IMG/VR virus record: IMGVR_UViG_3300025132_000036 | Location: 1 to 60,287 of that record | DNA length: 60,287 nucleotides | From: a virus | Direction: 5' to 3' (one strand) | Shown here: positions 2,182 to 57,474 of the stretch, piece after piece | Numbering within the stretch: position 1 is the stretch's first letter | Layout of the letters: each line of letters starts with the position of its first letter | Position numbers and translations under genes: made by a program | The notes under the pieces: generated by a model | The model's database searches: none | What the model was told of the DNA's origin: nothing | Seen by the model: only the letters and a program-made list of their open reading frames with translations

Positions 2182-3706
2182 CCAGTTCAACCTGCAACGG
2201 TCACGTCACGATATCCGCCACTTCTATGAATGGCTCTCGGACGAGTACCAATGGGCCGACCACATCGAAGAATGGCTCGACATGTACGCAGACCGCAAGA
2301 ATGCTGCCGTCCACCGTGTCTGCATCATCGCACCACGCTCACATTCCAAGTCCGCGACGCTACGGGTCAAACTCCTGCACATGTGCCTGTTCGAGAAGCG
2401 CAATAACAAGCCCACCGAGGTGTGGTTGTTCTCAGCATCTATCCGTCAGGCATCGAACCGTCTTGAGGAAATGAAGGAGGACATGCGTCGTCACCCTGAA
2501 CTCCGCAAGTTCTTGGATGAGCGTAGGTCAAACAAGCAGAAAATCCAGTTCACCAACGGTGCATGGATTCAGGCTACCGGTGTCGGTGCCGCCATTCGTG
2601 GTGAGCACCCCACCGTCGTGGCTCTTGACGACGTGTTGGCCGAGATGGGCGACATGACCATGGGTACGGTGCGTGAATGGTTCAAGCGCGTAGTCACACC
2701 GATGCTCGACCCCGGCACATCGTGCTACGTTGTGGGTACACCGATGGCCCATGATGACCTGTATCACACCGAGATGCTCTCAGAGAAAGCCAAGGAGGTG
2801 TGGAAGTCAGGCGTGTGGTCCGCGTTCCCGAACTGGGACGAGCATATCGAGGACAACACGGTGGTTCTGCAACCGTTGTGGCCGGAATACCGACCCACAA
2901 ACTTCCTACTCGAACAGAAAGCGAGCATTGACGACGACCTCGCCTTCGCTCAAGAGTACTTGTGTAAGGTCGTGGACGATGACTCCCAAGTCTTCAACCG
3001 CCACCTCATCAGAAAAAACATAGATGTGGATGCCTTCGGCGGATTCCGCCGTGAGTTCGACTATGGCGGTGAGAACGTGGTCCTCGGTTTCGACCCGTCC
3101 CATGGTATTGGAAAAGACCATACCGTCATTTTAGCGTTGAGGCAAGATGAGGACGGATTTGTGCATTTTGTGGACATGTGGAGGCGCAACGACTTTCCGC
3201 CAGACAAGCAGGCAGACACGCTGATTGAATGGGCACAGAAGTTCAAGGCACCGATTGCAGCCGAAGACGTTGGTTTCCAACGCCTGTACCAAACCATCAT
3301 CGAGCAAAAGGGCGCACGTGTGGACTACCGTGCATCGAAAGCCTCAAACAAGGCGCTGAAGCAGGCGTTGATGAACCGACTTCGTGTTTGGTTTGAGCGC
3401 GAACTCGTGTGCTTTCCTTACGGCGATAGCGAGACTCGTTCCAAAGTCAACATCTTGCTTGCCGAACTTGAGGCTCACGTGTGGAAGAACGGTGAAATCA
3501 AGGACGTAGGCAGGCACAACGACACCGTTATGGCCCTCGCCCACGCCATTGACCAGTTCAAGCCCAAGACCGCAGACTACATGCCCATGGCCAAAGCGAC
3601 AACGACTATGGGTTCTTGGGGCAGGAAGGGTGAGAAACCAAAAACCAAGAGGGGTCGCCGTCCCCGAGGACCGACGACCGGTAGGTACGGGAGGCTAAAC
3701 CTATGA
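2171..3706 (+). CDS. terL: Terminase large subunit
   Basis: A 511-residue packaging motor and nuclease. The ATPase half has a Walker A-like APRSHSKSAT near residue 55, a variant lacking the usual glycine as in many terminases, and Walker B VVALDD near 150 followed by a glutamate. The C-terminal RNase H-like nuclease shows its acidic residues in GFDPSHG (about 306), AAEDVGF (about 363) and HNDTVMALAHAID (about 450). It pumps DNA into the prohead and cuts the concatemer. Length is normal for the family. The gene starts inside the preceding microprotein gene, and its stop overlaps the next start as ATGA. Confidence 0.95.
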   Translation: MVFSQFNLQRSRHDIRHFYEWLSDEYQWADHIEEWLDMYADRKNAAVHRVCIIAPRSHSKSATLRVKLLHMCLFEKRNNKPTEVWLFSASIRQASNRLEEMKEDMRRHPELRKFLDERRSNKQKIQFTNGAWIQATGVGAAIRGEHPTVVALDDVLAEMGDMTMGTVREWFKRVVTPMLDPGTSCYVVGTPMAHDDLYHTEMLSEKAKEVWKSGVWSAFPNWDEHIEDNTVVLQPLWPEYRPTNFLLEQKASIDDDLAFAQEYLCKVVDDDSQVFNRHLIRKNIDVDAFGGFRREFDYGGENVVLGFDPSHGIGKDHTVILALRQDEDGFVHFVDMWRRNDFPPDKQADTLIEWAQKFKAPIAAEDVGFQRLYQTIIEQKGARVDYRASKASNKALKQALMNRLRVWFERELVCFPYGDSETRSKVNILLAELEAHVWKNGEIKDVGRHNDTVMALAHAIDQFKPKTADYMPMAKATTTMGSWGRKGEKPKTKRGRRPRGPTTGRYGRLNL

Positions 3707-5607: not shown

Positions 5608-7950
5608 ATGAACCGTTGGTCGAACATGCCGAGTCGTCGTGAGGGTGAGGCACGTGCCGATTATATGGCCCGGTGCATGGGAGATGCAGAGTCAGTCTCC
5701 AAGTACCCCGACGAAGCGCAAAGGTATGCCGTCTGCAACGGAATGGCGGACGAGAAGCAAGTTGAGGCGCTCCAGTACGGAAAGCCGGGAAAGAATGACC
5801 CTCGCAAGACTCCCGCCAAGCCATCTGAGCGACGCAAGGGCTCAAAGAAGAACAAGCCGGGTTCTGCAAAGAAACCGAACGCAGGCATCAAAGTCAGTAA
5901 GGAAACTGAGGCGCGACTTCGCTCGCTTATGTCGAAGCACAACTCTTCAGGCAAGGGGAGCAAAGCGAGCATGGGAATGCTCAAAACTGTGTACCGTCGC
6001 GGCGCTGGTGCTTTTAGCCGTAGCCATGCCCCCAACATGTCCCGTGGTGGATGGGGTATCGCACGAGTCAAAGCCTTCCTTTACCTGCTCAGGAATGGAC
6101 GACCAAGCAACCCGAACTATAAGCAAGACAATGATTTGCTCCCGCGGGGCCATCCCCGCAAGTCCGCCAAGGCTGATGAGGAAGGCGTCGAGGCCGCTGA
6201 GTACAACGGTAAGAAAGTCAGTCTTAACAAGCCCTTCCGTACACCCAAGGGACCAAAGAAGTTCGCCGTCTATGTGCAGAACGAGTCCGGTCGTGTCGTC
6301 ATTGTTCGCTTCGGTGACCCCAACATGGAAATCAAGCGTGATGACCCCGGTCGCCGCAAGAACTTCCGCAGCCGTCACAACTGCGACAACCCCGGTCCCA
6401 AGACCAAGGCACGATACTGGTCGTGCAAAATGTGGGAGCGCAGCAAGAGCGTGACCCAGTACACTTCCAACGAAAACCAAGAGGACGAACACGAGGCGCT
6501 CTCAGATGATTTGTGGTTTGACGTATGGAGCCAAAACGAAGGTGATGAAATGAGCGAAGAATACGCTGAGTTCTATGACGAATACGACGATGTAGTCGAG
6601 GCCGAAAGCGATGAAGCCTGCTGCGGGTCTTGTGCTGAACACGCCGAAGCGGAGATGATTCGCAAGGACGTGTTCGATAACCCCGGTCAGGCTGCGGGTC
6701 GTGCGAAAGACATTGGTTGCGAAGGCATTCACAGTCACAAAGAAGGCGAAGATACGGTGTTCATGCCGTGCGAAAGCCACGAAGAGTACACCAAGAAGAC
6801 TGGTGGCGATAAGGTCGCATCCTCCCCCTGTGGTGAGGGTGAAGAACTCATCGGTGGCGAGTGCGTTCGTGTAGCCGTCACCATGGAGATGGAGATTGAT
6901 GAGGTCACGACCCGTGTTGAAGCCGCTACCGGCAAGACCTACATTCGCATTTCCGGTGTCGCGTTCCATGAGGGCGTCAACAAGAACGGTTGGGGTGTTC
7001 GCCCTGCTCTCGCAAAGCGCCTCGCTGAAAAAGAAATGATGGGTGCCGACGTGACGCTCAACCACCCGAAGGCTGAGATGGGCCGATTCAAGCGTAACAT
7101 GGACGGCGGTGTTGATGAAGCCGTCGTTGGTACGGTCGTCAGCGCATCCTATCACGATGATGATGAGGACAAGGACCGGTATAAGGTTCGATACTCCGCT
7201 GAGATTGTGCGAGAAGAACTGTTTGCTTCTCTCGAGTCCGGTCTGTGGCTCAAGCCGGGGTACGGTGTGAGCATCGGCGGTACCGGCATCCCCTCCGAAG
7301 TGATGGAGGCTGACGAGCAGTACCCCCGTGGACAGATGTGGTTTGCCGACGAGTTCGACTTTGACCACCTCGCTATCGTCCACAAGCCTGCCTACCGTGA
7401 CGCCAACATCGAAAAGGTCGAGCGTGTGGAAGCAAATGAAGGAACTCTTAAGTACCGGTCCGCAGGTAGTACGCATCACCAACAGGTGAGCGAAATGACC
7501 GACACCGAGATTCCCATCGAAACTGACGCATCCGAACTCGAGGCGCTTCGCGCCGAACTCGTGCTGCGGGAAGCCCGCATTGCTGAGTTTGAAGCGGCCG
7601 ACATGGCCCGCGCCGAAGAGGGTCGCATGGCTCTCGTCACCCGCGCATCCGAACTCGGACTCAAGGGCCACGAAGACTTCGCGGCCGAGACCCTCACCAC
7701 GATGATTGCTTCGTGGGAGGCTGCTCGCCCCGCCGCTCCGGCCGTCGAGATGACGCCAGTCACCCCCGCGGAAGAGCCGGTCGCCGCAAGCGAGAAGTCC
7801 GAGCCAGTCGTGGCCTCGTACTTCAACGGCAAGATTATGGAAGTCCCCGAGACCCTCTATGCTCGCTGCTACAACTCATGGGCTCGCGCCTACAACAACG
7901 TGTTCGCGGGTCAGGAAAACACGAAGGCCCTGCTCTTCGAGGAACTCTGA
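5608..7950 (+). CDS. Prohead protease-scaffold polyprotein
   Basis: A 780-residue multidomain protein. The N-terminus (MPSRREGEARADYMARCM) and a basic linker precede a segment at about 131-150 (GAGAFSRSHAPNMSRGGWG) and a domain at about 216-276 (KKFAVYV...GDPNMEIKRDDP...ARYWSCKMW), both of a kind seen in marine tailed-phage head polyproteins. Residues about 430-605 resemble a prohead protease-like domain (ISGVAFHEGVNKNGWG, TLNHPKAEMG, FDHLAIVHKPAY). Residues 640-780 form an acidic coiled coil suited to scaffolding. It sits between portal and capsid genes, where protease and scaffold are expected. Catalytic residues cannot be assigned with certainty. Confidence 0.75.
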   Translation: MNRWSNMPSRREGEARADYMARCMGDAESVSKYPDEAQRYAVCNGMADEKQVEALQYGKPGKNDPRKTPAKPSERRKGSKKNKPGSAKKPNAGIKVSKETEARLRSLMSKHNSSGKGSKASMGMLKTVYRRGAGAFSRSHAPNMSRGGWGIARVKAFLYLLRNGRPSNPNYKQDNDLLPRGHPRKSAKADEEGVEAAEYNGKKVSLNKPFRTPKGPKKFAVYVQNESGRVVIVRFGDPNMEIKRDDPGRRKNFRSRHNCDNPGPKTKARYWSCKMWERSKSVTQYTSNENQEDEHEALSDDLWFDVWSQNEGDEMSEEYAEFYDEYDDVVEAESDEACCGSCAEHAEAEMIRKDVFDNPGQAAGRAKDIGCEGIHSHKEGEDTVFMPCESHEEYTKKTGGDKVASSPCGEGEELIGGECVRVAVTMEMEIDEVTTRVEAATGKTYIRISGVAFHEGVNKNGWGVRPALAKRLAEKEMMGADVTLNHPKAEMGRFKRNMDGGVDEAVVGTVVSASYHDDDEDKDRYKVRYSAEIVREELFASLESGLWLKPGYGVSIGGTGIPSEVMEADEQYPRGQMWFADEFDFDHLAIVHKPAYRDANIEKVERVEANEGTLKYRSAGSTHHQQVSEMTDTEIPIETDASELEALRAELVLREARIAEFEAADMARAEEGRMALVTRASELGLKGHEDFAAETLTTMIASWEAARPAAPAVEMTPVTPAEEPVAASEKSEPVVASYFNGKIMEVPETLYARCYNSWARAYNNVFAGQENTKALLFEEL

Positions 7951-15370: not shown

Positions 15371-15421
15371 GTGAATGTTCAAATAACGGCTCATAGGTAG
15401 CAACCACTAAGGGTGACCTCC

Positions 15422-16453
15422 ATGCCTTCGTACTACGCATACCGCTACGTTTCGCTTCAGAACGAAAAGGCAACGTACGGCACCGCGTCCGGCACCGAGT
15501 ATTTCGGTGAAGTGGATGACGAGTCGTTCAGCAACACCTTCGACCTCCTGACCCGCTCCGACATGAGCCGCATGGGTTCTCACGATTCCGTCGCCGGCAC
15601 GATTCGAGGCGAGGGTGGCCTGAACCTCGTTCTTCAGAACGACCACTTTTGCGCCATGCTCATTGGTGCTGCGTATAACTCCTACACGCACGACTCGAGC
15701 GGCAACAAGCACACCTTTACCGAGTCCGTCACGGCCGGCAAGCACCTGCCCTCGTACCGCATCACGGTTGGTCGTGAGGACGAGCAGCACAACTACCCCG
15801 GCATGTGCCTGAGCCGCCTGTCCCTGTCCGCCAACGTCGGTGAGTACGTGATGCTCAGCGCCGACTTCGTGGGCAAGGGTGAAACGGCAGAAAGCACCCT
15901 CAACCATGCTCCATCCTTCGAGGGTGCAAGCACCACCGGTTTCCACTTCGCTGAGGCCGACGTGTTCTTCAACATCACCGGTTCTGACCCAAGCAACGCG
16001 GGTGCAAACGTCAAGTCCTTCTCCGTTGAGTTCAACCTCAACTTGGACACCGATAACTCCATGGCTCTCGGCTCCCAAGAGTACGTGGTTCAGCCCATGC
16101 CGCAGATGCGTGAGATTACCGGAACCATTGAGTTCGCCCTGCCCAAGACTGGTGCGGTTGGTGCAAACAACGAGCCGACGTACTCTTCGGTGAACACCGA
16201 CACCGACGCCGCCGTCATCTATGAAGGTACGAACTACGCCATCAAACTCGCCTTGGCTTCCGGCAGCGACACCCTCGACCTGTTCCTGTACAGGGTCGTG
16301 TGGGATGCACCGGTGATGAACGTCAGCGGCCGTGACTCCTCCACCATGAGCGTCGGATTCACCGCCCTCACCGACTCGACCACCAACGTCATGTCGAAGG
16401 TTGATATGGTGATGGCCGACGTGACTGACGCTGACTTGGACCTCTTCGACTGA
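15422..16453 (+). CDS. Major tail tube protein
   Basis: A 343-residue beta-rich protein placed between tail-completion and tail-chaperone genes. The pattern fits tail tubes: an N-terminal YEVDDES-like arm, alternating strands, and duplicated halves with GGLNLVLQNDHFCAMLIGAAYNS and a later EITGTIEFALPK. Two related halves suggest a trimeric tube of duplicated subunits. The ATG is used, since GGGTGA lies 5 nt upstream. Codon bias is strong, as for a structural protein made in quantity. Confidence 0.75.
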   Translation: MPSYYAYRYVSLQNEKATYGTASGTEYFGEVDDESFSNTFDLLTRSDMSRMGSHDSVAGTIRGEGGLNLVLQNDHFCAMLIGAAYNSYTHDSSGNKHTFTESVTAGKHLPSYRITVGREDEQHNYPGMCLSRLSLSANVGEYVMLSADFVGKGETAESTLNHAPSFEGASTTGFHFAEADVFFNITGSDPSNAGANVKSFSVEFNLNLDTDNSMALGSQEYVVQPMPQMREITGTIEFALPKTGAVGANNEPTYSSVNTDTDAAVIYEGTNYAIKLALASGSDTLDLFLYRVVWDAPVMNVSGRDSSTMSVGFTALTDSTTNVMSKVDMVMADVTDADLDLFD

Positions 16454-16657: not shown

Positions 16658-16882
16658 ATGCGACGAACCCCTCCTGTCCGTGGCTCCGCTCTGAAAGCCC
16701 TCCGTGGCGTCAAGCCCGGTCGCCCTACCCCCTCCCCTGAACCGGAACCTGTTGAGGAACCGGTCATCGAGCCTGTGCCTGTTGAGGCACCGGTCGAAGT
16801 AAAGCCCAAGCCAAAGACGCGCAAGCGTAAGCCAAAGACAAAGAAGAGTGAGACCAATGCCGGTGATGAAGAAACAGTTTGA
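16658..16882 (+). CDS. Proline-rich basic protein, 74 aa
   Basis: A 74-residue low-complexity protein: a basic N-terminus, a Pro-Glu-Val repeat segment (PEPEPVEEPVIEPVPVEAP) and a Lys/Arg-rich tail (KPKPKTRKRKPKTKK). It overlaps the tail-chaperone start. Such sequences are unstructured and often bind nucleic acid or proteins. No family recognised. Confidence 0.6.
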   Translation: MRRTPPVRGSALKALRGVKPGRPTPSPEPEPVEEPVIEPVPVEAPVEVKPKPKTRKRKPKTKKSETNAGDEETV

Positions 16883-17201
16883 ACTGAACGGAAAAGAAGT
16901 GTGGGTGCGCCAAGCCTCGGGCATGGAGCGCCTTCAATTTGAGACCTTGCTTGCGAAGACGTTTCGCAAGTTCCGGCACTTCGGCGCTGACCAAGATGCG
17001 TGGACCGAAGACCAACAGGAAGAGTTCCTCGTGGCTCTCGAAGAAGCCGGCGGTGGGTTGGATGACCAAATCCGCCACCTCGTCCCCCCTTGCCTGCCCG
17101 ATGAACTGGATATCAACGACTTGGACGCTACCGAACTCATGTTGGTGTACAACTTCGTGAAGGGCGGCGACGAGGACGGCTCCGTCCCTTTGGCCTCCTG
17201 A
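16857..17201 (+). CDS. Tail assembly chaperone, G-type
   Basis: A 114-residue protein directly before the tape measure gene, the standard place of tail assembly chaperones that coat the tape measure during tail polymerisation. Its last codons contain the slippery heptamer CCCTTTG in the correct phase, five codons before the stop counting the stop codon. A fraction of ribosomes would shift -1 and read into the downstream frame. The start could also be three codons later; the first ATG after the overlapping GTG is used. Confidence 0.75.
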   Translation: MPVMKKQFELNGKEVWVRQASGMERLQFETLLAKTFRKFRHFGADQDAWTEDQQEEFLVALEEAGGGLDDQIRHLVPPCLPDELDINDLDATELMLVYNFVKGGDEDGSVPLAS

Positions 17202-17467
17202 GCAAAGTCGCACCCGCCCTGTGTTCATCGTTCAAAGGACAATTGCCGAGCGACCTGATTTTCAAGTACACGGAAGAGGGGGGCTTGCGACGACTGGAGT
17301 ACGACTTGGCCGTGCTGAACGAGATTCAGCAGCAGATTACTGAGGCCCGGTCGAGCGACCAAAAGGACAACGCCGCTGCGGCCAACGCTCGCAAAGAGCA
17401 GCGCCGCAAGGCATCCGACTCGGAAGTCCTCGGTATGTTGAAGGCTCACGGCGCATCTCTTAGATAA
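16857..17467 (+). CDS. Tail assembly chaperone GT fusion by -1 frameshift
   Basis: The frameshift product keeps residues 1-112 of the G-type chaperone, then continues in the -1 frame from base 17192 as GLLSKVAPALCSSF... for 91 more residues, 203 in total. The -1 frame is open from well before the slip site to its stop at 17465-17467. Its only own start would be a weak TTG at 17243. This mirrors the conserved gpG/gpGT arrangement of phage lambda and many siphoviruses. Frameshifting itself is predicted, not observed. Confidence 0.7.
17186..17192 (+). promoter_or_regulatory. -1 ribosomal slippery site CCCTTTG
   Basis: The heptamer fits X_XXY_YYZ exactly in the zero frame (C CCT TTG). After slippage the tRNAs would re-pair with CCC and TTT. 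The zero-frame stop TGA lies two codons downstream, and the -1 frame stays open for 91 codons. Confidence 0.75.
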
Positions 17468-17483
17468 CACAGGGGGGGAGACC

Positions 17484-20400
17484 ATGGCGCGAGTAGGTGC
17501 ATCACAAGTCTTCTTCAACGTGGTGGCCCAATGGAACACCGAGAAACTGATTTCAGATACGCGCACCGCATCCAACGTGATGCAGGCCGTTCTCGTGGAC
17601 TCGTTCGAGGCCGTGCTGAAGCCGATTGACGACATGAACCTGCTCCTCGACCAAGCGTTCGAGGCCATGCGTGCTATCACGGAAGCGACACAACTCGCGG
17701 CCGTTGAGTTCGACAAGTTCTATGGTGACGTGCCGAAGGGCAGTAATGAGATTGAGCACTTGACTGACCGACTCACCACCCTTGGTGAAAAGTACGCCGT
17801 GATGGGTGACGAGGCAATTTTGGCCGGTGCCCGTGCCGCTCAGGTGGGTACGCTGATTGGTCGGCAGAACGTGGATATCTTGGTGGACCAAGCGAACGTC
17901 CTCTCGCAGATTTCGGACTTCGACGCGCCGGCTGCGATGAAGTCATTGATTGCTCTTCAGCAACAGACCAACGCCCTGTACGGCGACATGACTCGTGATG
18001 ACTTCAACGCGCTGACTTTCAGCGAGCAGCGCATGATGCTTGAGGAGAACCTCATGGCCATGAACAACACGCTGAACACCGTGGCGAACAACTCGGTGGC
18101 GCTCGAGTCAGACTTGGTGGAGTCTATGCGGAACTTCGCCGCTCAAGGTCACCTCGTTGGTGACTCGTTCGCTGAGATGGCGGCTATGTCCGCCGTGTTG
18201 CTTGAGGCCGGTGAAGAACAGGGTGCGTCCGGCCGTGCGCTGCGTATGATGTACGCTCGCCTTGGTGGTGATATCAGCGGTGCCCGTACCAAGATGGAAC
18301 AGATGAACGTCGCCATCTTGGACGAGAACGGCAACATGAAGTCCATGACCGAGATTATGACCGCCCTCCACGAACAGGGCTTCTCGGAACTGAGTGCCGC
18401 TCGCAAACAGGAGATTGCTCAGATTGTGGCCGGCAACCGCCACTACGTGCGGTTCCTGAAACTGATGGAGAACCACGGCCGATTCACCGAACTTGCAGCC
18501 CTTGGTGAAGAAGGACTGGCCGTCGCCACAGAACAGGCGGAAACGGCTATGGAAAACTTGGCCAATCAACTGTTGAAGGTCGAGGCCGAAAGCGAAAACG
18601 CTCGTGCTGCCCTTGGCGAGCGTATGCTCCCGACGATGATTGGGATGGAAGAAGCGACCCGCGACACGCTGCTTGCTCTCGACGGCATGGCTTCAGCATT
18701 CGGCAGCATGTTCGGTGAAGAGGGTGGAGAAAAGGTGGCGAAGGGCCTTGGTCGGATGGTTGGTGGGTTCCGTCAGATGCAGGGCTTCGTCAAGTTCGGG
18801 CTGACGATTCGCAGCCTGAGCATTGCGAGTGAGATGTACCAGTCCGTGCAGCGCAGCCTTCAGGATATCCTCGTTGCGAACGAGAACCTGCACTCGAAGA
18901 CGGCGACGTACCTACGCTTCGGTGAGAAGGCCAACACAGCACAACAGACCTTGACCAAGCGCATTCGCTTCCAGCATCAGGAAATCGCAAAGATTCTCGA
19001 ACATAAGCGCACGATTCAAACACAACTCAAGGTTGCTGAGCAGGCCCGTACGCCGATTCTCGACGCACAGAAAAGGGTCATCGAAGCAACGGAGATGGTG
19101 GAGCAAAAGAGCATCGAACATTCTGTTGCTCAGCAGCGTATGAAAGCGCAGTACCTCACCATCCTGAAGCGTGTAAATAGCGAGGTCATGCTTGAGGCCG
19201 AAGGCATGTCCAACCTCGGCAACGCAATGCAAGAGATTTACGGCACCGGTAAAGCAACCGTCAAGCGTGATGCCCTGCTGCGCCAAACTCAAGTGGACAT
19301 TGAGATGACCAAGCGCCTGACTCAATCGCAGAAAGAGGCCATGGTCGTGCAACACGAGCGAGGTCGTACGCAGCACATTGTGATGCAGCGACTCAAGTCG
19401 TTTAACGAACTCACCCGTGCTTTCACGTTTGAGCAAATGGACTCAAACCAGAAAACGAGGACCAACGCTCGCTTGCTCAAGATGAGCAAACAAGAAGTGG
19501 ATGCGCTGTCCGCCGGAATGACTCAATTCGCTAAGCGTCAGGAATTGACCAAGACAGGGTTCATAGACACAAACAACCTGATGAACATTTACGCTAAGGT
19601 ACTGCGGACAAACAAGGTCGAGGGACTCGAACTCGAACAGTCTCTCATCAAGCAAGCAAAGGCTTTCGGTATGACCGACGCTTCTGCTCGAAACTACGTT
19701 CAGGGCATGGACCTAACGGCGAGGATTACAGGTTTCACACAACAGGAGTTCGAGGGACTGATGAGGGCCATGAGGGACCTACTCGGTGAGCACATGCACT
19801 TCGACCAAATCCTCAAGACGATGGCTCATGGTGGTACTTTCCATTCGGTTGCTCAAGCGTTGCACACGGTCACCCAAGAACTGAACGATGCCGAGAACGA
19901 AACCTTTGACGCCACGGTCGCCATGATGGACCTTGAGAAAGCCCTGACTGACGCCGGTTTCGGTGCAAGCGAGTACGCACGACTTCTGAGAGAACTCCAA
20001 CAGTCTGAGTTGAAAGATGCGGAAGCCCGGAAGGAACTCGATAGGCTGACCAAGATGATGACCATGGACCAAGAACTGCTGAACGCAGCCATGGAGGAGT
20101 ACGACATTCAAATGCAAGAGGTTCAGCAAAGGCAAATGAACCTGTCCGCCAACGTCAACCGACAGATGGGTGCCGTGACGTTTGGTCTGAGCAACATGTT
20201 GGGTACCGCCCTGTTCGCTATGGGTAAGTCAGAAGCAGCCATGGGTTCTATCATCATGTTTGCCGGTTCAATGATTCCCGCTATCAAGCAGACAAGCAAG
20301 GCGTTGGGTCTGATGATTACGGACTTCGGACAAATGGAAAAGGCAGCGCGACGAGCGACGATGGCCTCGGCTGGTTTGAACGCCGTGCTTATGCTCGGTG

Positions 20401-21371
20401 TCGCTGCGATTGGCGCATACACCGTGGCCAACCAAAAGCGCAACGAGTCCCTGCGTGAGTCTTCCGAGGTTGCGAAACAAGCAGCGGCCCACGCTCAGGA
20501 CATTCTGTCCGCCGACACTAAAGTCACGTCAAACGAAGGTTTGGTCGGGGCACTTGGTTTGACTACCAAATCGTTCGGTGAACTGAACGGTGACCTGCCG
20601 GAGATTCAGCGAAACATCGCCATACTTGAAGGCGCAATGGGCGACCTGAGTGCTGCAAACTTGGCTTCGGCACAAGCCGCGCTGACCAACCTGCGGGCAC
20701 TCGAAGCACTTAACACCGAAGGTTCTGCTATGCTCGACAAGCAGGCTTTCGAGGATGCGGCCGAGGCTTTGGGTAGCGGTACTGGCGAAGCGTTCCGCAC
20801 AATGTTTAGCAAGAACTTCTTTGGGACTGGCGACAAGCAGGTGCAAGAACTCATGGACCTGACGGGTACTGAGAAGGGAGTCGGTGGGTACTTGGACGCC
20901 ACCCTGCAAAACCTCATGGACGGACTCGTTGAGCAAATGAGGGACGGTACCAAACTCACGGCGGAGCAACTGGAATTGCTACCCAAGGTGTTCACCAAGG
21001 CCAACGCAGAACTGCTGACTGAAATGAACGGACTTGTGATTACGACGCTTGATGGCGAGGTAGCCTTGAGCAACCTTGCCGATAGCGGTATCAATGCGTC
21101 GGGGTCTATCGGTACATTGACCGATGACTTGGCGAACGCGAACCGTGAACTGCATGAGTTCGGTGACGCCAAAGAGGAACTGTTCTTCGGCGGCAAGTTC
21201 GGCAACGTGACGGGTTCGCTCTATAAACAGGTCGTACAGAAGGGCGTTGAGTCCCTGTACGTCACGAACGAGGTCATTATGACGAACAACTTCAACGGAT
21301 TTTTCAACGAAGAAGAGGCGGCTCGGCGCATCATCAATGTGCTGAACCGGCACCTCGAGGGACAAGTGTGA
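17484..21371 (+). CDS. Tail tape measure protein
   Basis: A 1,295-residue protein, long and mostly helical, right after the tail chaperones. The N-terminal 350 residues resemble the TP901-type tape-measure domain (SNEIEHLTDRLTTLGEKYAV, ALRMMYARLGGDISGAR). Long coiled coils follow, with hydrophobic segments near residues 905-945 and 965-990 that could act in membrane passage. By the usual 0.15 nm per residue the tail would be roughly 190 nm. A long non-contractile (siphovirus) tail is likely because no sheath gene is seen. Confidence 0.9.
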   Translation: MARVGASQVFFNVVAQWNTEKLISDTRTASNVMQAVLVDSFEAVLKPIDDMNLLLDQAFEAMRAITEATQLAAVEFDKFYGDVPKGSNEIEHLTDRLTTLGEKYAVMGDEAILAGARAAQVGTLIGRQNVDILVDQANVLSQISDFDAPAAMKSLIALQQQTNALYGDMTRDDFNALTFSEQRMMLEENLMAMNNTLNTVANNSVALESDLVESMRNFAAQGHLVGDSFAEMAAMSAVLLEAGEEQGASGRALRMMYARLGGDISGARTKMEQMNVAILDENGNMKSMTEIMTALHEQGFSELSAARKQEIAQIVAGNRHYVRFLKLMENHGRFTELAALGEEGLAVATEQAETAMENLANQLLKVEAESENARAALGERMLPTMIGMEEATRDTLLALDGMASAFGSMFGEEGGEKVAKGLGRMVGGFRQMQGFVKFGLTIRSLSIASEMYQSVQRSLQDILVANENLHSKTATYLRFGEKANTAQQTLTKRIRFQHQEIAKILEHKRTIQTQLKVAEQARTPILDAQKRVIEATEMVEQKSIEHSVAQQRMKAQYLTILKRVNSEVMLEAEGMSNLGNAMQEIYGTGKATVKRDALLRQTQVDIEMTKRLTQSQKEAMVVQHERGRTQHIVMQRLKSFNELTRAFTFEQMDSNQKTRTNARLLKMSKQEVDALSAGMTQFAKRQELTKTGFIDTNNLMNIYAKVLRTNKVEGLELEQSLIKQAKAFGMTDASARNYVQGMDLTARITGFTQQEFEGLMRAMRDLLGEHMHFDQILKTMAHGGTFHSVAQALHTVTQELNDAENETFDATVAMMDLEKALTDAGFGASEYARLLRELQQSELKDAEARKELDRLTKMMTMDQELLNAAMEEYDIQMQEVQQRQMNLSANVNRQMGAVTFGLSNMLGTALFAMGKSEAAMGSIIMFAGSMIPAIKQTSKALGLMITDFGQMEKAARRATMASAGLNAVLMLGVAAIGAYTVANQKRNESLRESSEVAKQAAAHAQDILSADTKVTSNEGLVGALGLTTKSFGELNGDLPEIQRNIAILEGAMGDLSAANLASAQAALTNLRALEALNTEGSAMLDKQAFEDAAEALGSGTGEAFRTMFSKNFFGTGDKQVQELMDLTGTEKGVGGYLDATLQNLMDGLVEQMRDGTKLTAEQLELLPKVFTKANAELLTEMNGLVITTLDGEVALSNLADSGINASGSIGTLTDDLANANRELHEFGDAKEELFFGGKFGNVTGSLYKQVVQKGVESLYVTNEVIMTNNFNGFFNEEEAARRIINVLNRHLEGQV

Positions 21372-31418: not shown

Positions 31419-31426
31419 TACTTAAA
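31419..31426 (-). promoter_or_regulatory. TATA-type promoter TTTAAGTA overlapping the polB stop
   Basis: The minus-strand box TTTAAGTACTG contains the TAA stop of the polymerase gene. Its centre is 26.5 bp from the ATG at 31396, the exact archaeal TATA-to-start distance for a leaderless mRNA. Confidence 0.65.
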
Positions 31427-33683
31427 GCCATTCCAGCCTACCGATGCCGCGCATGGCGTTGGTCAGCGCCGTAGTGTCCCAGTCCACGAGAGCATACACG
31501 TCGCGTGCCTTGTTCACAATGAATCGCTCAGTCATCTCAGCCCAATCCACCTCGTCCACGCCATCAATGTCGCTGAGCCGGTGGAACGCCATGTAGCGAC
31601 CACGCTTGTTGATGCCGGCGAGGTAAAACCCACCGACCTCAAACTCCAAGCCGAGCGTGTCTTGTGCCCACTTAACGCCGGCCACAGGTCCACCGAGCGT
31701 GCGATAGGACGACAGGGGCTTGCTCAGTTTGCCCACCATCAACAGGGACTCACCGAGTGCCCCGGTCTTACCGTCTTCGATGAGTTCGAGCAGGCGAGCA
31801 TCCACGTCCGCCTGTGGTGTACCGTCGAGGATGCCTCGCAGTACCTCGTCCATGGCCTGCTTCATGGCCTTGGGCATACGCGCCTGCTTGAGTTCCAGTC
31901 CCTTATAGTAGTACTGCGGTTCATCGAGGTACCTGCCGTCAGCCCATGTCGTCTTGCCGGCGTACCGGTTCTTGGCCTTGAGAATCATGGTGCTACACCA
32001 CTTCTCAAACTCAACCTCGATGGGAGCCATGGACTCGTTGATGGCTTCGCACAGAACCATGCCCTCCTCGGGCGTCGGTACCTCGCAGAAAATGGAGTCG
32101 GTGTGGCCGTAGCGTACGGGGTAACCACGGTCATTGCACTCGTCACGCAGGCGGAAGAGCGTCTGCCTCGACGTGTACGTGATGGCGGCTGCAATATCGG
32201 GGTGGTACATGCCGAACTTGGAATCGCCACAGATACCGTACAGGCTCGCCACCATGCTTTTTGTTGCGAATTGCATAGCGTCCCATTTGCTTATAACCTG
32301 TAGGTTTCCCTCTCGGTGAGCCTCCTTAAGCAGCGCCTTGTACTCGTTGCGTTTGACTGTGAGTTTGTCCATGGTGCGACCAAGCACGCCCTGTTCACCC
32401 TGCATGAAACGGATGCCGTTTCCACAGTCCACACCATCGTCAGACAGGGTGTCCCACGAAATGTTGTGAAGGTTCACGTTGCTATGATACATGGCCTTGA
32501 TATCCATGATAGCCATGTTCTGATACCGACCCGGCACCACGTCCTGTACGTCAGCGCCCTGATATTCGACCTTGGTGAACTGCGGACTATCAGGGATGCG
32601 TACGGCGAAGTCCTCGTCCTGAACGAACAGGGACGTGGCGCACACGGTGACCATCGGTGTCGAGGCCAGTTCACATTGAATGAGGTGTTGCAGGGACGTG
32701 TAATACCCAAGCACGTTTAGGGCCTCATCCAACCTCGGTAGCAGACGAACGTCCTGTCGGTTATAGTCGAGGTAAGTCCCTACGTCGGTGTAATACGTGT
32801 CGTGCCCGTTGGGTAGTTCAACCTTCTTCTCACCGAGCACAAACTCAGCCACGTCATCCAGTTTGCGAGCAGCCAATTGCCCATTCTTGATGGTCCACAG
32901 TTTCTTGAAACCGACCATCAGGTCAAAGCACATGCGGCCGGGGATGGGCTGAGTCCACCGCTTCTCGGTCCAAGAGTACTTGAAATTGTGCTGACGATGC
33001 GGCGACATAATCTTGGGGTCAAGCCCAAGCCTTCGCATACGGGTACTGATAGTGGACACGTCGGCGTCAATGAAGAACCAACCCGTCAGGATATCGGGGT
33101 CATGCTTACGCATATGTGATGCGAAGTCAGCAAGCAATTGCCGTTCGTTTGCGAACGCCTTCATGGGCGGGTCCATCACAACCTCGGTCAGTCCTTCAGG
33201 GTGGTCCTTGCAGGGCCACGTCTTGTGCATACCGGCGGGAATGTCGGGGTGCTGAACCCACGTGAACATCTTGCCGGTGTAGGAATCGTACGCCGAGAGC
33301 ATGGTGACTTCTTCAGACTCGGCCTTCCATTCTCCGTCCACGTACCAAACGCGGTGGTCATAGTTCGGATAAGGGTCTTTGCCGGCGGCGAGGCGGTCGT
33401 TCAGCACTTGGTTTGGGAAGGACACCTGCCCCTCCCACGTCCTGTAAGGTTCGTTGCGCCGCCATTGGCCGCGGTCCCATTCGGTCCTGAAGAACGCCTT
33501 CTTGAGCGCCTCACCGTACAGACCCTCGTACCCGTCTTCGGTGCGTACCAGTCCGTACTCATCCTTCCCCTCGGGGATGAACAGGTACGGGTAGGACTCG
33601 ATGACCTCTTCGATACGCTCGAGAGTCTCAGGGTCACGGCGTCGTACCGTGACCTTGCGACCGCCCGTTTGGTCCACAATCAT
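31422..33683 (-). CDS. polB: Family B DNA polymerase
   Basis: A 753-residue replicative polymerase. The 3'-5' exonuclease motifs are DGE in YVDGEWKA (about 116), TGWFFIDADV (about 200-210) and YNRQD (about 307). The polymerase motifs are A, DIKAMYHS (about 394); B, KSMVASLYG (about 474); and C, YGHTDS (about 525). The first Asp of the usual YGDTDS is His; the second, catalytic Asp remains. The start is taken at ATG, since the TTGATATA box is centred 26.5 bp upstream; a TTG two codons earlier would precede transcription start. It lies between two small zinc-ribbon genes in the replication block. Confidence 0.95.
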   Translation of the reverse strand: MIVDQTGGRKVTVRRRDPETLERIEEVIESYPYLFIPEGKDEYGLVRTEDGYEGLYGEALKKAFFRTEWDRGQWRRNEPYRTWEGQVSFPNQVLNDRLAAGKDPYPNYDHRVWYVDGEWKAESEEVTMLSAYDSYTGKMFTWVQHPDIPAGMHKTWPCKDHPEGLTEVVMDPPMKAFANERQLLADFASHMRKHDPDILTGWFFIDADVSTISTRMRRLGLDPKIMSPHRQHNFKYSWTEKRWTQPIPGRMCFDLMVGFKKLWTIKNGQLAARKLDDVAEFVLGEKKVELPNGHDTYYTDVGTYLDYNRQDVRLLPRLDEALNVLGYYTSLQHLIQCELASTPMVTVCATSLFVQDEDFAVRIPDSPQFTKVEYQGADVQDVVPGRYQNMAIMDIKAMYHSNVNLHNISWDTLSDDGVDCGNGIRFMQGEQGVLGRTMDKLTVKRNEYKALLKEAHREGNLQVISKWDAMQFATKSMVASLYGICGDSKFGMYHPDIAAAITYTSRQTLFRLRDECNDRGYPVRYGHTDSIFCEVPTPEEGMVLCEAINESMAPIEVEFEKWCSTMILKAKNRYAGKTTWADGRYLDEPQYYYKGLELKQARMPKAMKQAMDEVLRGILDGTPQADVDARLLELIEDGKTGALGESLLMVGKLSKPLSSYRTLGGPVAGVKWAQDTLGLEFEVGGFYLAGINKRGRYMAFHRLSDIDGVDEVDWAEMTERFIVNKARDVYALVDWDTTALTNAMRGIGRLEWL

Positions 33684-33705
33684 GGCCAACAGTCAGGCCC
33701 GTCAG

Positions 33706-37603: not shown

Positions 37604-37628
37604 TATTTATCTTCCGCCAGTATATCAA
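37604..37628 (-). promoter_or_regulatory. Two TATA-type boxes before the SSB-like gene
   Basis: On the minus strand a TTGATATACTG box contains the TGA stop of the clamp-loader gene and predicts a 14-nt leader with AGGGATTG as ribosome site. A second A/T-rich box GATAAATA, about 17 bp nearer, would place the start at the ATG itself. Either or both could be used. Confidence 0.6.
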
Positions 37629-38530
37629 TGCTCCGATAGCCGACGACAGAAGTCCCAAACAACGTAGTGCGGTTCAACACCGCTGATGAGGTCACGCTGA
37701 GCCTGTGTGGCTGCGTCAACCAACGCCATTTTTGACTTCGGTCCGGCTTGAGAAGCCACACCGTAGCGGAATACATCATCAATCGCGTGACGCAGGTTCG
37801 CTACCGAACCCATCTCACGCACGGCTTCGTCCACCGAAGCCTCCTTGAAACACAGGGTCAGGACGCGGTGAGCGTCCGTGCCCTGCCTACCGAGGGAGTT
37901 CAGGAAAGCCTGACGCTCCGACTCGGGCAAGTGAGCATATGCTTGAAGCGCGTTGATAGCGTTTCGCAAGTCACCGTTGTGTGCGGAAGCAATGGTACCG
38001 AGGTCATCAGCATCCACCTTCAGTCCCTCGGTGGAAGCAACAGTCACGAGGCGAGCAAGAACGTCGTCATCCGATACAGGTCGGAACTCACGCACGGCGC
38101 AGCGAGACTGAAGCCATGGGGTGACCTTGGACAAGTCGTTGCAGGTCAGGATGAAGAAACCCTGTGCCTCTTCGATTACACCCTTGAGGGCGGACTGAGC
38201 AGCGTCAGTCAATTGGTCGGCTTCGTCAAGGAAATAGACAGACTCATACTGCCCCAGACGAGTCATAGGTGCGAGGTCGGACTCCACGAACTCGATGCCT
38301 CGTTGCCTCTTGGAAGAGGCGTTGTACTTGAAGATGGAGTACCCGAGGCTCTCGGCCAACAGATACGCCATGCTCGTCTTGCCCGTACCGGGTTCGGGTG
38401 AATAGAAGATGTAGTGCTGCATCGGGGCTTCGCCCTTCAGGATAGCCTCGAACTCAGCACGGAGGTGAGGCTGACCCTTGAACTGACCAAGGGTCGAAGG
38501 TCGGTGCTTTGCTGCCCAAACTTGACGCAT
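37625..38530 (-). CDS. rfcS: Clamp loader, RFC small-subunit type
   Basis: A 301-residue AAA+ ATPase. The order MRQVWAAKHRP, Walker A PEPGTGKTS (about 45-53), Walker B FLDEADQ (about 100), sensor 1 TCND (about 130) and SRC with the arginine finger (about 142) is diagnostic of RFC small subunits. It loads the sliding clamp. No separate large subunit is seen, so it may form a homo-oligomer or use the host subunit. The ATG is taken from the TTATATA box centred 26-27 bp upstream; the frame is open a few codons further. Confidence 0.92.
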   Translation of the reverse strand: MRQVWAAKHRPSTLGQFKGQPHLRAEFEAILKGEAPMQHYIFYSPEPGTGKTSMAYLLAESLGYSIFKYNASSKRQRGIEFVESDLAPMTRLGQYESVYFLDEADQLTDAAQSALKGVIEEAQGFFILTCNDLSKVTPWLQSRCAVREFRPVSDDDVLARLVTVASTEGLKVDADDLGTIASAHNGDLRNAINALQAYAHLPESERQAFLNSLGRQGTDAHRVLTLCFKEASVDEAVREMGSVANLRHAIDDVFRYGVASQAGPKSKMALVDAATQAQRDLISGVEPHYVVWDFCRRLSEH

Positions 38531-38553
38531 TGATTCTGTGGCGTACACGCCAC

Positions 38554-46368: not shown

Positions 46369-46913
46369 TCTTGTTCCTCCGTCACATTGTTGCTATCGGT
46401 TGGGGTCATATAAACCCTTGCCCATTCGGGAATGTCCAGCGGGTTGTTCCACACCACGCGCTCCTTGCTCATGTAGTACCGGCGGTATGACTCGACCACA
46501 TCGTCGCCCTTGAACTCGTCAGGCATGGCGAGCGGGTGGCGGGTCAGCGGGCCATCGGGAATCAGGGTCGCCAGTTTGGACGTGTAGTACGCGGGGTCGC
46601 TGCACGCATGGTGCTTGCCTCGACGCGCATAGAACTCCACCTGCAAGCCGACGGCGTGGTCCCAGAGCCACCACCAGTTCGAGCGGGTGTTGCCCGCCCA
46701 AATCGTACACGGGTGGTGCTGATGGGTGCTACGCCAAGCGTTGCCTGCCTGTGTCGTCACGCCTGCGTTCAGGAGCATTGTCTCGTTCGCACCGTGGCGG
46801 TACAGGGCGGTGGTGAGCATCTGCGTTGACTCAATCAGCATCTTGCCGAGGCGCAGGTCGTCGTGCATCCACGCCGCAATCTGCGGGTCCTTGTCCAGTA
46901 CGAAGATGTTCAT
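46365..46913 (-). CDS. Conserved tailed-virus protein, MNIFVLD family
   Basis: A 182-residue protein. The start MNIFVLDKDPQIAAWMHDD, LGKMLIESTQMLTTAL, the HPCTIWAG segment with WWLWDH, a GKHH motif and MPDEFK...YRRYYMSKE form a pattern I recognise from a conserved protein of marine and other tailed phages, usually of unknown function. The many invariant His, Trp and Tyr suggest an enzyme or nucleic-acid binding. The exact activity is not known to me. Confidence 0.7.
   Translation of the reverse strand: MNIFVLDKDPQIAAWMHDDLRLGKMLIESTQMLTTALYRHGANETMLLNAGVTTQAGNAWRSTHQHHPCTIWAGNTRSNWWWLWDHAVGLQVEFYARRGKHHACSDPAYYTSKLATLIPDGPLTRHPLAMPDEFKGDDVVESYRRYYMSKERVVWNNPLDIPEWARVYMTPTDSNNVTEEQE
46407..46414 (-). 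promoter_or_regulatory. TATA promoter GGGTTTATAT
   Basis: The minus-strand CAAGGGTTTATATGACC is near-identical to the promoter before the gene at 49732. The predicted start is at about 46384, leaving a 16-nt leader with GGAGGAAC. Confidence 0.7.
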
Positions 46914-49772: not shown

Positions 49773-49780
49773 GATATAAA
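49773..49780 (-). promoter_or_regulatory. TATA promoter GGGTTTATAT
   Basis: The minus-strand CAAGGGTTTATATCACC matches the promoter at 46407 almost base for base, including the downstream CCGAT and GGAGGAAC. The predicted start is near 49750. Confidence 0.7.
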
Positions 49781-52670: not shown

Positions 52671-52678
52671 GATATAAA
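52671..52678 (-). promoter_or_regulatory. TATA promoter TTTATATC
   Basis: The minus-strand CAGGTTTATATCCC is centred 26.5 bp before the ATG at 52648. It would drive the leftward accessory operon. Confidence 0.7.
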
Positions 52679-54645: not shown

Positions 54646-57474
54646 TCAGCGGAGCCAACGCATGTCGCGGTAGTCGTCCGTCGCCCAGTTCCACTTCTCG
54701 GAGAAGAAGTCCTCGTCCAGAGACTGGTCGAGGTGGTCACGGGCGTGGCCGGCCGCAAGGTCTGCGTCTGCATCACGGTAGTCGCCCTTGGCGACCCACG
54801 ACCAATCAAGGTCTTGTTGGGACCAGATATCCACGTACAGGGAGCGGGGCAGTTCGTATTCCACAATGTGGTCCTCGTCCACCGCCGTTTGTCCCCGGTG
54901 CGTGTTTGCGTCGTAGCCGTCGTACCACTCGCCTTCATGGATGAAGGGAGGCCATCCGACGTAACCGAAGTCAGCCACACCTGCCTCGATGGCCGCGTCC
55001 TGCGCGGCAACTTGAAGCGCGTTGCGGTCAGCAACGGACACCTTGGGCGTCAGGTCAAGCGCACAGTTGTCCGCATTGCCGGAGGCTTTGCGGGGCTTGC
55101 TCCACGACCAACGGGTGTTTTGCCCGTAGGTGGTGGCGTAGGTGCGCCAGTCGTACGACGTGGCTGCGGTCTGGGCCGAGCCGGCAATGTCGCGGGAGGT
55201 AATCGCACCCGAAGGCGTGATTGTGTAGTGGCGACCAATGACGCATTCGTACACGGAAGCCAGTTCCTTGCCGAAGGCGTCTTCGAGGTGCGCGGTAGTG
55301 CTGCCGACCACAACAGGACCGGTGGTCTTGTCGCGGAGCCGACCGAACGAGAGTGGGTTGCCCCCGTTCGTCCAGAAGTGCAGGTGGTCAGGTTGGTCGC
55401 GGTCTGCCCAGATGAGGGACATGCTGCCCTTTGCGTACTTGACTACGGTTTCAATGCCGCCCACCTCGAGGGCTGCGGCCACCGCTTGAGAGTCAACATC
55501 GCCAGTTGGCTCGACCTTGATTCCTGCCCACACGTCTTCGTAGTTGTGAACGACGCCGTTGTGGACCAACACCACGCGCTCGTTGTGAGAGGCGTGGGGG
55601 TGCGCGTTTTCGGGCGTGTTTGCACCGTGCGTTGCGTACCGCGTGTGGACCATGGACCAGTTGATGTTCGTCTGCCCGAGTTGCTTGACCGTCTTGGCGG
55701 TGTACTTCTCGAGCGACTCGGCATGTGCAGCGACGCGCCATGTACGCAGGCCGTCCTTGCTGCGGATAGCCCACCCGGCTGCTTGTCCACCCCGCGAGGC
55801 GAGGAGGGTGTGCAACTTGGCGAGCCACTTGCCCTTGACGAACTTGCGGTTGTTTGCACGGTGGATGGCTCCAATGCCGCAGCCCACAATCAGGGCAGCG
55901 GCGGCAACCCATGAGCCGAAGCCCATGAGAAGGGACAAGAGTCCGAGCGCCGTGGCGTCCAACGAAAACTGGGACCACGAGAGGTGGTCGTCTGGGTCTT
56001 GGCCTGCGGCCTCCGCACAGCGCGTACAACCGCCTCGGAAGTACACAACGCTGAGTTCCGTATCTTGAGGGGTGAGTTCAAGGGTACAACCGAACTGCTC
56101 GTGCATGTATTCCTGAACACCCAAGGTGGCCAGTTCAGACCCGCAATCGTCGCATTGGATGTAGGGGTGCGCTTCGTACAGGGCATTGCGTCGTTCCACC
56201 GACAGTTGGTCGAGGTAGTACATGCGGCCGGGCACCCACAGGGAGTCCCCACCGCTCATCAGGCCCTGCAACGTCGCCGTGTTTGCGGTAGCGAGGGTTG
56301 GGTCTGTGTCCATCCATGGCCACTCGGGCTCAGGACCCTCATTCGCAAGGTGACGTGCGCGTGCTTCCCAGAACTGCATCTCCGGGTCATCCTCGGACAG
56401 ACCGAGGTAGTCCCGAATAGCAGCGATGCTGCTGAAGTAGGAGTCGCGTGTCTGAACGCTGCGGCGTTTCTTGGTCACATGACCGGCCGCCCAGTCCCAC
56501 CACGCATCTTCATCCATGGAACGCTGCACCATCAGGTAGCACAGTCGAATCCATGCGTACATCTTGTTCGAGTTCACGGTGCCTTGGTGGAGTCGGAACT
56601 CCACGGTGCCGTAACTTTCGAGGCAGGTCAGACGGACAGGCAGGTACCGGTCAGTACCGATGACCCGCCAAATGTCGCTGTACACGGCGCTCTTGACGTT
56701 GGGGTTCATCTCTGAGAGCGGCTTGTCCTTGGACCATCCGAACAGAGACTTCATGCCCCGTGGGTTGCTGTTGTCGAGCGCCTTTGCGACCTTCACCGTC
56801 TTGCTCGTCGGGCTGTAGTGGGTGTCGGGTCCTGCGGCACTCTTGATATCCCGTAGGTTCCGAGCGCCGGAGTAACTGTTGATGCCCGTCTTGGTGCGAC
56901 GGCTTGGGCTGACGATTGACTCGAAAGCACCAAACAAAATGTAGTACGCAATCGCAGTACGCATTCCCACACCCTTTGCCTGCTCGAAGGACACGGGGCC
57001 GTTGTTGTTGTTGTCGAAAGACCCGTTGTGGTCACGCAGCCCGATGTGGACGTGCATGCCGCACGAGGTATCAACCCCGAGCACTCCTGAAGCAGAGCGA
57101 CCAATGGCCCGCACGTAGTTTCGGATTCGTCCCCAACCGTGAAGCGGGGGAGACACGATTTCCGCGCTGCCGTACGACCCGCCGTTGAGCGAGGAGTCGG
57201 TGACGATTTTGGTATTCGTCATGGTACGATGTGAGTACCCCTCGTCTTGTGCGTGGACGTAGCCGTCGCTCGTCATGCGCAGGTACTGCGCAAGGGTGAC
57301 GTTGTTGAACTCAGCGGCCCGCTTGCGGACCTCCAGTTCCAACCCCGCTCGAGCGACCATTCGGTCGTGGTGCTTGGTTCCAATCCAAGCGACGCCAACT
57401 GCTGCCGTGAGCACAAAGGCCCAGAGCATGGGAAGCAGAGTAAGCGCCATGTTAATGTCTGTGGTTGCAGACAT
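54646..57474 (-). CDS. Membrane amidoligase / class II glutamine amidotransferase fusion
   Basis: A 942-residue protein. After a membrane helix (about 12-32) comes an amidoligase_2-type COOH-NH2 ligase: GLELEVR (44-50), AEIVSPPL (104-111), SCGMHVHIG (137-145) and VEFRLHQGT (291-299). A possible zinc site follows (CDDC 441-444, CTRC 483-486), then a second membrane helix (about 508-530). The rest is an Ntn-type glutaminase: CGIGA with Cys532 as predicted nucleophile, RGGQAAG (561-567), HTRYATHG (610-617), ENAHPH (622-627), VHNGVVHNY (637-645). The glutaminase would release ammonia from glutamine for amide formation on an unknown carboxylate. The nucleophile of this class must be N-terminal, so cleavage before Cys532 is implied. 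GGAGGG precedes the ATG. Confidence 0.85.
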   Translation of the reverse strand: MSATTDINMALTLLPMLWAFVLTAAVGVAWIGTKHHDRMVARAGLELEVRKRAAEFNNVTLAQYLRMTSDGYVHAQDEGYSHRTMTNTKIVTDSSLNGGSYGSAEIVSPPLHGWGRIRNYVRAIGRSASGVLGVDTSCGMHVHIGLRDHNGSFDNNNNGPVSFEQAKGVGMRTAIAYYILFGAFESIVSPSRRTKTGINSYSGARNLRDIKSAAGPDTHYSPTSKTVKVAKALDNSNPRGMKSLFGWSKDKPLSEMNPNVKSAVYSDIWRVIGTDRYLPVRLTCLESYGTVEFRLHQGTVNSNKMYAWIRLCYLMVQRSMDEDAWWDWAAGHVTKKRRSVQTRDSYFSSIAAIRDYLGLSEDDPEMQFWEARARHLANEGPEPEWPWMDTDPTLATANTATLQGLMSGGDSLWVPGRMYYLDQLSVERRNALYEAHPYIQCDDCGSELATLGVQEYMHEQFGCTLELTPQDTELSVVYFRGGCTRCAEAAGQDPDDHLSWSQFSLDATALGLLSLLMGFGSWVAAAALIVGCGIGAIHRANNRKFVKGKWLAKLHTLLASRGGQAAGWAIRSKDGLRTWRVAAHAESLEKYTAKTVKQLGQTNINWSMVHTRYATHGANTPENAHPHASHNERVVLVHNGVVHNYEDVWAGIKVEPTGDVDSQAVAAALEVGGIETVVKYAKGSMSLIWADRDQPDHLHFWTNGGNPLSFGRLRDKTTGPVVVGSTTAHLEDAFGKELASVYECVIGRHYTITPSGAITSRDIAGSAQTAATSYDWRTYATTYGQNTRWSWSKPRKASGNADNCALDLTPKVSVADRNALQVAAQDAAIEAGVADFGYVGWPPFIHEGEWYDGYDANTHRGQTAVDEDHIVEYELPRSLYVDIWSQQDLDWSWVAKGDYRDADADLAAGHARDHLDQSLDEDFFSEKWNWATDDYRDMRWLR

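Follow-up and report, generated by a model that had tools for sequence, protein, structure and literature searches.

Tail assembly chaperones made by frameshifting are textbook examples in phages, and the slip site of lambda is G_GGA_AAG. The lambda chaperones G and GT are produced by such a frameshift, and their mode of action is reviewed in the available part of PMC5009743. For archaea, the available text of two reviews lists one demonstrated −1 frameshift (alpha-L-fucosidase gene), one likely case (magnesium chelatase, two methanogen genera) and four predicted in haloviruses (PMC5009743, PMC8211752); this agrees with the initial annotation of the locus described here, which held that few cases had been described on archaeal ribosomes. 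According to the same text, −1 frameshifts have been reported or predicted in the haloarchaeal tailed viruses HVTV-1, HCTV-1, HCTV-2 and HCTV-5 (PMC5009743, PMC8211752), so that their prediction in such viruses is already in print. The annotation of HVTV-1 shows a joined chaperone gene beside the tape measure gene. Word searches of the open-licence PMC literature listed no report of frameshifting for tailed viruses that infect marine archaea, and the available portions of PMC8651126 and PMC10160649 mention no tail-gene frameshift for the viruses.

We analyzed an IMG/VR virus record of 60,287 bases (hereafter, the window). It very probably carries a tail assembly chaperone pair of the lambda G/GT type made by −1 slippage at C_CCT_TTG, with a Shine–Dalgarno-like (SD-like) element probably helping. 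The zero-frame gene, TAC1 (G-like; 16857–17201, plus strand, 114 aa), starts at ATG 16857 and stops at TGA 17199–17201, and the −1 frame extension, TAC2 (T-like; 17192–17467, plus strand, 91 aa after the slip), ends at TAA 17465–17467. Both are placed between a tail tube protein gene (15413–16453, plus strand, 346 aa; PF18906 Phage_tube_2, 1.2e-17; phrog_290 minor tail protein, 8.9e-27) and a tape measure protein gene (17484–21371, plus strand, 1,295 aa; phrog_28, 7.4e-12, and six further tape-measure families). A small Pro/Lys-rich ORF (16660–16882, plus strand) intervenes between the tail tube gene and TAC1 and shares its last 26 bases with the beginning of TAC1; the relative L002 has a similar ORF ahead of TAC1 (2826–3026), and L003 has an ORF of like size and place. 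The start of TAC1 is mostly kept among relatives (M-P-V or similar). Elsewhere, the window encodes a 780-aa protein (5608–7950) that matches DUF3721 (1.1e-6) and, below threshold, DUF5824, and a 942-aa protein (54646–57474, minus strand) with amidoligase-like and class II glutamine amidotransferase domains. Pfam gave nothing above the curated cut-off on ten right-half ORFs, and no tRNA genes were found in the window. The tail tube protein gave 2 pattern matches and no relatives in viral contigs, and no match in phage records.

The slip site CCCTTTG (17186–17192, plus strand) is read in the zero frame as GTC CCT TTG, that is, C_CCT_TTG in exact X_XXY_YYZ phase, and is followed by GCC TCC TGA. 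Reading 17186–17201 therefore bears out the initial annotation, which had placed this heptamer in phase two codons before the TAC1 stop. The −1 frame is open over 17105–17467 (120 codons), with 91 residues from the slip point at 17192 to the TAA. The initial annotation had also described a −1 frame open for 91 codons without a proper start, and we indeed found that none of the starts ATG, GTG and TTG precedes residue 7 of the extension; a weak start candidate that it did not mention, CTG at 17198–17200, overlaps the TAC1 stop (CTGA). In-phase XXXYYYZ heptamers occur at 9 of 7,488 codons in ten large ORFs of the window, a frequency that predicts about 0.007 per gene over its final six codons. 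With V-P-L as the encoded peptide and the codon usage of the window, the chance of the heptamer is about 0.008; calculated from the codon usage of each locus itself, it is about 0.024 (median of 118 loci, as 4 of 122 had too little flanking sequence). The conservation described below is stronger proof of the site than these chance figures.

The expected course of translation is as follows. Most ribosomes would translate TAC1 through to the TGA. In a minority, the Pro-tRNA paired to CCU and the Leu-tRNA paired to UUG would both slip back by one base to CCC and UUU, and we infer from the site that this occurs in the cell at some such minor rate. The slipped ribosomes would continue in the −1 frame and yield a TAC1–TAC2 fusion joined at V-P-L/G-L-L, for which the junction in the window reads V-P-L-G-L-L-S-K and the predicted junction-spanning tryptic peptide is GGDEDGSVPLGLLSK. 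By analogy with lambda, TAC1 would coat the tape measure protein, and the rare fusion would recruit tail-tube subunits.

We collected relatives by scanning IMG/VR with the TAC1 protein, so that the slip site was not selected for apart from its encoded residues. With contig repeats removed, the census comprises the window and 121 IMG/VR contigs, 122 loci in all; L076 and L125 were left out of the count, as their contigs end before the TAC1 stop. It covers the nearest relatives (80 of 93 in one scan and the best 80 of at least 182 in another). In the first 80 loci, any XXXYYYZ in the last 25 codons was sought, and ten lacked one; the second batch of 42 loci was screened over the last eight codons for TTN preceded by CCT, CAT or AAT rather than for every possible heptamer, and all 42 had such a site. 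Of the 122 loci, 110 have an in-phase XXXYYYZ, and none of the 91 that lack an ATG at position +2 from the TAC1 stop (ATG+2 below) is without it, so the conservation of heptamer and phase that the initial annotation had proposed to look for in relatives holds. The intact heptamers are CCCTTTG (81 loci), CCCTTTT (19), CCCTTTA (9) and AAATTTT (1). The 12 remaining loci lack an intact first triplet (ACCTTTT in 7, GCCTTTT in 3, TCCTTTT in 1 and GCATTTT in 1).

The distance from the site to the TAC1 stop is 0, 1, 2, 3, 4 or 5 codons in 10, 22, 37, 31, 2 and 20 of the 122 loci, respectively. Because the stop moves while the site stays, it is the site, and not an overlap with the stop, that is kept. 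All 122 loci have TAC2 in the −1 frame, with 87–110 residues in the 116 where it closes within the contig; in six counted loci it runs past the contig end. A +1 frameshift as in HSTV-2 was also considered and rejected: the +1 frame past the TAC1 stop is open for at most 20 codons in 65 of the 80 first-pass loci, and the extension lies in −1 throughout.

Selection on both the site and the extension was then estimated. When 54 non-redundant loci without ATG+2 were aligned by codon, the V, P and L codons of the heptamer ranked 1 to 3 of 91 TAC1 columns for synonymous constraint (z = 33, 30 and 22; the next column has 11.6). These fixed codons are unusual, since GTC makes up 12% of Val codons, CCT 37% of Pro codons, and TTG and TTA 16% and 31% of Leu codons in the pooled usage. 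The median dN/dS was 0.068 in the TAC2 frame (403 pairs); the other two frames gave 4.5 (283 pairs) and 1.5 (519 pairs), the pairs not being mutually independent. Judged by its pattern of substitution, the −1 extension is a real coding frame, and its protein is also conserved among the relatives.

An SD-like GAGGA (17172–17176, plus strand) lies 5' of the slip site in the window as a candidate stimulator, and GAG is enriched at the homologous place in relatives. Among Glu-bearing loci without ATG+2, GAG at codon −4 (counted before the Pro codon) was found in 59 of 73, against 19.5 expected from their own codon usage; the corresponding figure with ATG+2 was 6 of 24, against 6.2 expected. In non-redundant sets, GAG occurred in 23 of 28 loci without a start (7.6 expected) and in 4 of 10 with ATG+2 (2.9 expected), and its enrichment was modest where the start sits elsewhere (7 of 15, 4.6 expected). 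The SD core followed the same three sets with 31 of 37, 6 of 16 and 12 of 18, respectively; the loci with a start elsewhere number 26, of which 20 have it at −1. Compared with synonymous shuffles, the SD-like stretch of the window itself did not stand out (rank 0.58; group median 0.21). An SD-like GAGG or AGGA about 6 to 9 bases 5' of the heptamer probably helps by pausing the ribosome or pulling it back.

We also searched for a downstream RNA stimulator in eight 60-base windows of 54 loci, where the mean folding z against synonymous shuffles ranged from −0.97 (SE 0.21, at +5) to +0.09, and none was convincing; the z of the analyzed record itself at +5 was +0.78. RNAalifold on the 54 loci gave only a weak helix that pairs the slip site with the F-K-G codons. 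This helix was dropped, as its common partner sequences (CAAAGG, TAAGGG, TAAAGG and CAAGGG) do not vary in step with the slip site.

The chaperone role is suggested by the gene order and by the frameshift itself. To the tail-chaperone assignment made in the initial annotation, our analysis adds the gene order, with the tail tube gene before and the tape measure gene after; the matches in sequence and fold are weak. TAC1 matched the tail assembly chaperone family phrog_344 with E = 0.04 in the window and E = 0.017–0.05 in 4 of 46 members. The best among described chaperone families was phrog_1613 (1 of 46 members, E = 0.011), and phrog_10757, for which no function is given, was matched by 1 of 46 members (2e-4). 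The AlphaFold model of TAC1 (mean pLDDT 93) has a beta hairpin and then helices, and Foldseek found no match for it in the PDB under E = 0.001. BFVD gave a single strong match, to an unnamed protein of 115 residues that shares 63% identity and is evidently closely related, and several chaperones are among the weak matches (E = 0.05–0.7). The TAC2 model is helical (mean pLDDT 82.5), confident in its first half only and lower in the second.

Could the arrangement arise without programmed slippage? That the heptamer is accidental, and the change of frame due to a sequencing error or to gene decay, is a negligible prospect and is already refuted by the relatives, since the same −1 arrangement recurs in 122 of 122 loci, closes at the lengths given above in 116, and carries an extension with dN/dS of about 0.07. 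Termination–reinitiation deserves closer attention: ribosomes would stop at the TGA, restart at the overlapping CTG and make free TAC2 with no fusion. In Haloferax volcanii, ATGA and TGATG overlaps are documented to couple translation in this way, and, in the available text, an SD is not strictly required (PMC6728339); TTG, GTG or ATG overlaps the TAC1 stop at −1 in 21 of the 122 loci and ATG stands at +2 in 31 of the 57 that have some candidate TAC2 start. However, the other 65 loci have no ATG, GTG or TTG before residue 7 of the TAC2 frame, including the near relatives L010 and L090–L096 (TAG stops). With the stop lying 0–5 codons downstream, independent initiation thus fails as a general account. 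It would also leave unexplained both the fixed CCT TTR codons and a heptamer that stays while the stop moves. In the clade of the window (19 rows), the stop overlap is CTGA, TTGA, GTGA or absent, and the heptamer is CCCTTTG in every row. We therefore consider reinitiation very unlikely as the sole source of TAC2, and two-tRNA slippage at C_CCT_TTG is retained for the window; some free TAC2 could still be made by reinitiation at loci with stop overlaps, the CTG of the window included.

The initial annotation had named relatives without any slippery site, but with two separately started genes, as evidence that would count against frameshifting. Such relatives were found in part, as 12 loci of one clade combine a broken heptamer with an ATG over the stop; yet even these keep T_TTT. 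All 12 broken heptamers are in loci with ATG+2 (TGATG or TAATG). The loci that combine CCT TTT with an ATG over the stop are L040–L043, L047, L050, L053–L055, L057, L058, L060, L062, L063, L065, L068–L073, L085, L142, L149–L151 and L156–L159, with CAT TTT in L055. On a tree of 98 distinct rows, built by a quick method from 206 columns with the junction residues excluded, all six changes between intact and broken fall in one 20-row clade that makes up 8.1% of the tree length (chance about 3e-7 if spread by length). In this clade the first heptamer base changed 8 times (4.37 per unit length), which is the rate of the third positions two and three codons before Pro, whereas in the rest of the tree it changed once (0.05 per unit length) and these third positions 27 and 20 times. 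The close relatives L058 and L063 of the clade, for example, have CCC and ACC. The sole change outside the clade belongs to the A_AAT_TTT locus, where the whole triplet is altered. The third base of the Pro codon and the TTT codon never change in the 20-row clade, although the rate of the first base would predict about 8 changes. T_TTT is thus kept there, while the P-site triplet is free.

For the 20-row clade, the natural reading is that tRNA-Phe alone would slip on U_UUU, with or without reinitiation at the ATG. We somewhat favor the view that the clade with ATG+2 has left two-tRNA slippage and makes TAC2 by single-tRNA slippage at U_UUU, by reinitiation at TGATG or TAATG, or by both; this concerns that clade and not the window, and it does not conflict with two-tRNA slippage elsewhere. 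The confinement of the six changes, the drift of the first base beside an unchanged Pro third base and TTT, and the absence of the GAG bias (6 of 24, as above) all point to it. On the other side, CCC is still present in 18 of the 30 TTTT loci with ATG+2, and L144 has ATG+2 and yet an intact CCCTTTG. TTT and ATG+2 are almost wholly confounded, TTT without ATG+2 being found only in L141 and L086, both intact, and two loci prove little. A test of ATG+2 against heptamer state on independent pairs, with 3 to 6 pairs, has no power, and the reading rests on the quick tree of 206 columns. It is possible, and we propose it tentatively, that one probable archaeal virus family shows two states of one recoding site: a two-tRNA C_CCU_UUR with an SD-like helper, and a single-tRNA U_UUU with ATG over the stop, in which both a fusion and free TAC2 would be possible. 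This would be a natural transition between frameshifting and reinitiation.

The host bears on what the site can tell about archaeal ribosomes. The initial annotation had called the virus archaeal, and this stands as probable from two replication genes on the minus strand, a replication factor C small subunit-like clamp loader (RFC; 37625–38548) and a family B DNA polymerase (PolB; 31422–33689; PF00136, 5.2e-25), whereas the terminase is uninformative. The best PDB match of RFC is 1iqp RFCS (3.7e-31), followed by eukaryotic RFC (3e-23) and far ahead of the phage gp44 clamp loader (1.7e-11); 1iqp and 2chq are archaeal RFC small subunits. For both RFC and PolB, the phage records at the top among the matches listed are HCTV-5 and HVTV-1 (best 12 of 2,494 and best 20 of 1,201), ranked by coverage times identity. 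All 20 long relatives chosen for searching have both PolB and RFC, two of the RFC matches with one internal stop codon. Judging by RFC and PolB, the host is quite probably archaeal and the virus a probable marine archaeal virus.

A bacterial host, with which the recoding would be uninformative on archaeal ribosomes, is unlikely by comparison with these matches, and several observations fit it nevertheless. T4-like phages, too, have a PolB and a clamp loader resembling RFC. The terminase matched 32 phage records at below 60% identity, led by Bacteroides phages, with the haloarchaeal phiH and PhiCh1 among the rest. Against named genomes, the TAC1 profile gave 39 pattern matches and no relatives, and the PolB profile gave 48 matches and one relative, with 28% identity, in a contig labelled as an Altibacter MAG. 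Altibacter was not adopted as host on the basis of this single relative; the contig that encodes it (L188, NZTP01000016.1) is possibly a mis-binned virus contig. The TATA-box signal is also weak: in the regions 5' of 145 gene starts, taken from the window and four relatives, TTTATA occurs 7 times against 3 in the reverse-strand control, and in the window itself it occurs 5 times against 3.3 expected, a count reached in 22 of 100 shuffles. Three TTTATA on the minus strand (46409–46414, 49775–49780 and 52673–52678) lie within about 50 bases 5' of minus-strand ORF starts and are possible archaeal TATA boxes. The tail tube protein gave 2 pattern matches and no relatives in viral contigs, and no match in phage records.

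Compared with known systems, the locus has the same arrangement as lambda G/GT; here the shift site is C_CCT_TTR, and no sequence homology was detected. With tblastn, TAC1 found no match in phage records at E up to 1. HK97 gp13 (PDB 2ob9) aligned to residues 1–107 of the TAC1 model with a VIA-align Z of 4.6 (rmsd 3.8 over 78 residues), tied with unrelated chains, and its Foldseek E was 0.9. Giardiavirus, a eukaryotic dsRNA virus, has CCCUUUA, a heptamer of the same type that was proposed for −1 slippage, though in the available text the sequences of that paper itself do not support the mechanism (PMC8230311). In HVTV-1 and HCTV-1, -2 and -5, as in the window, the same kind of gene is next to the tape measure gene, and the host here is probably archaeal too; HVTV-1 TAC1, however, has no detectable similarity to that of the window (hhalign probability 0.3%). 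To these haloarchaeal predictions the present analysis adds the C_CCU_UUR site, the breadth of its conservation over 122 loci and the clade released from it. More than 100 natural variants of one slip site are thereby provided, with an SD-like element, moving stops and a clade in which one half of the heptamer has been freed from selection, so that the importance of the individual parts of a slip site on such ribosomes can be tested.
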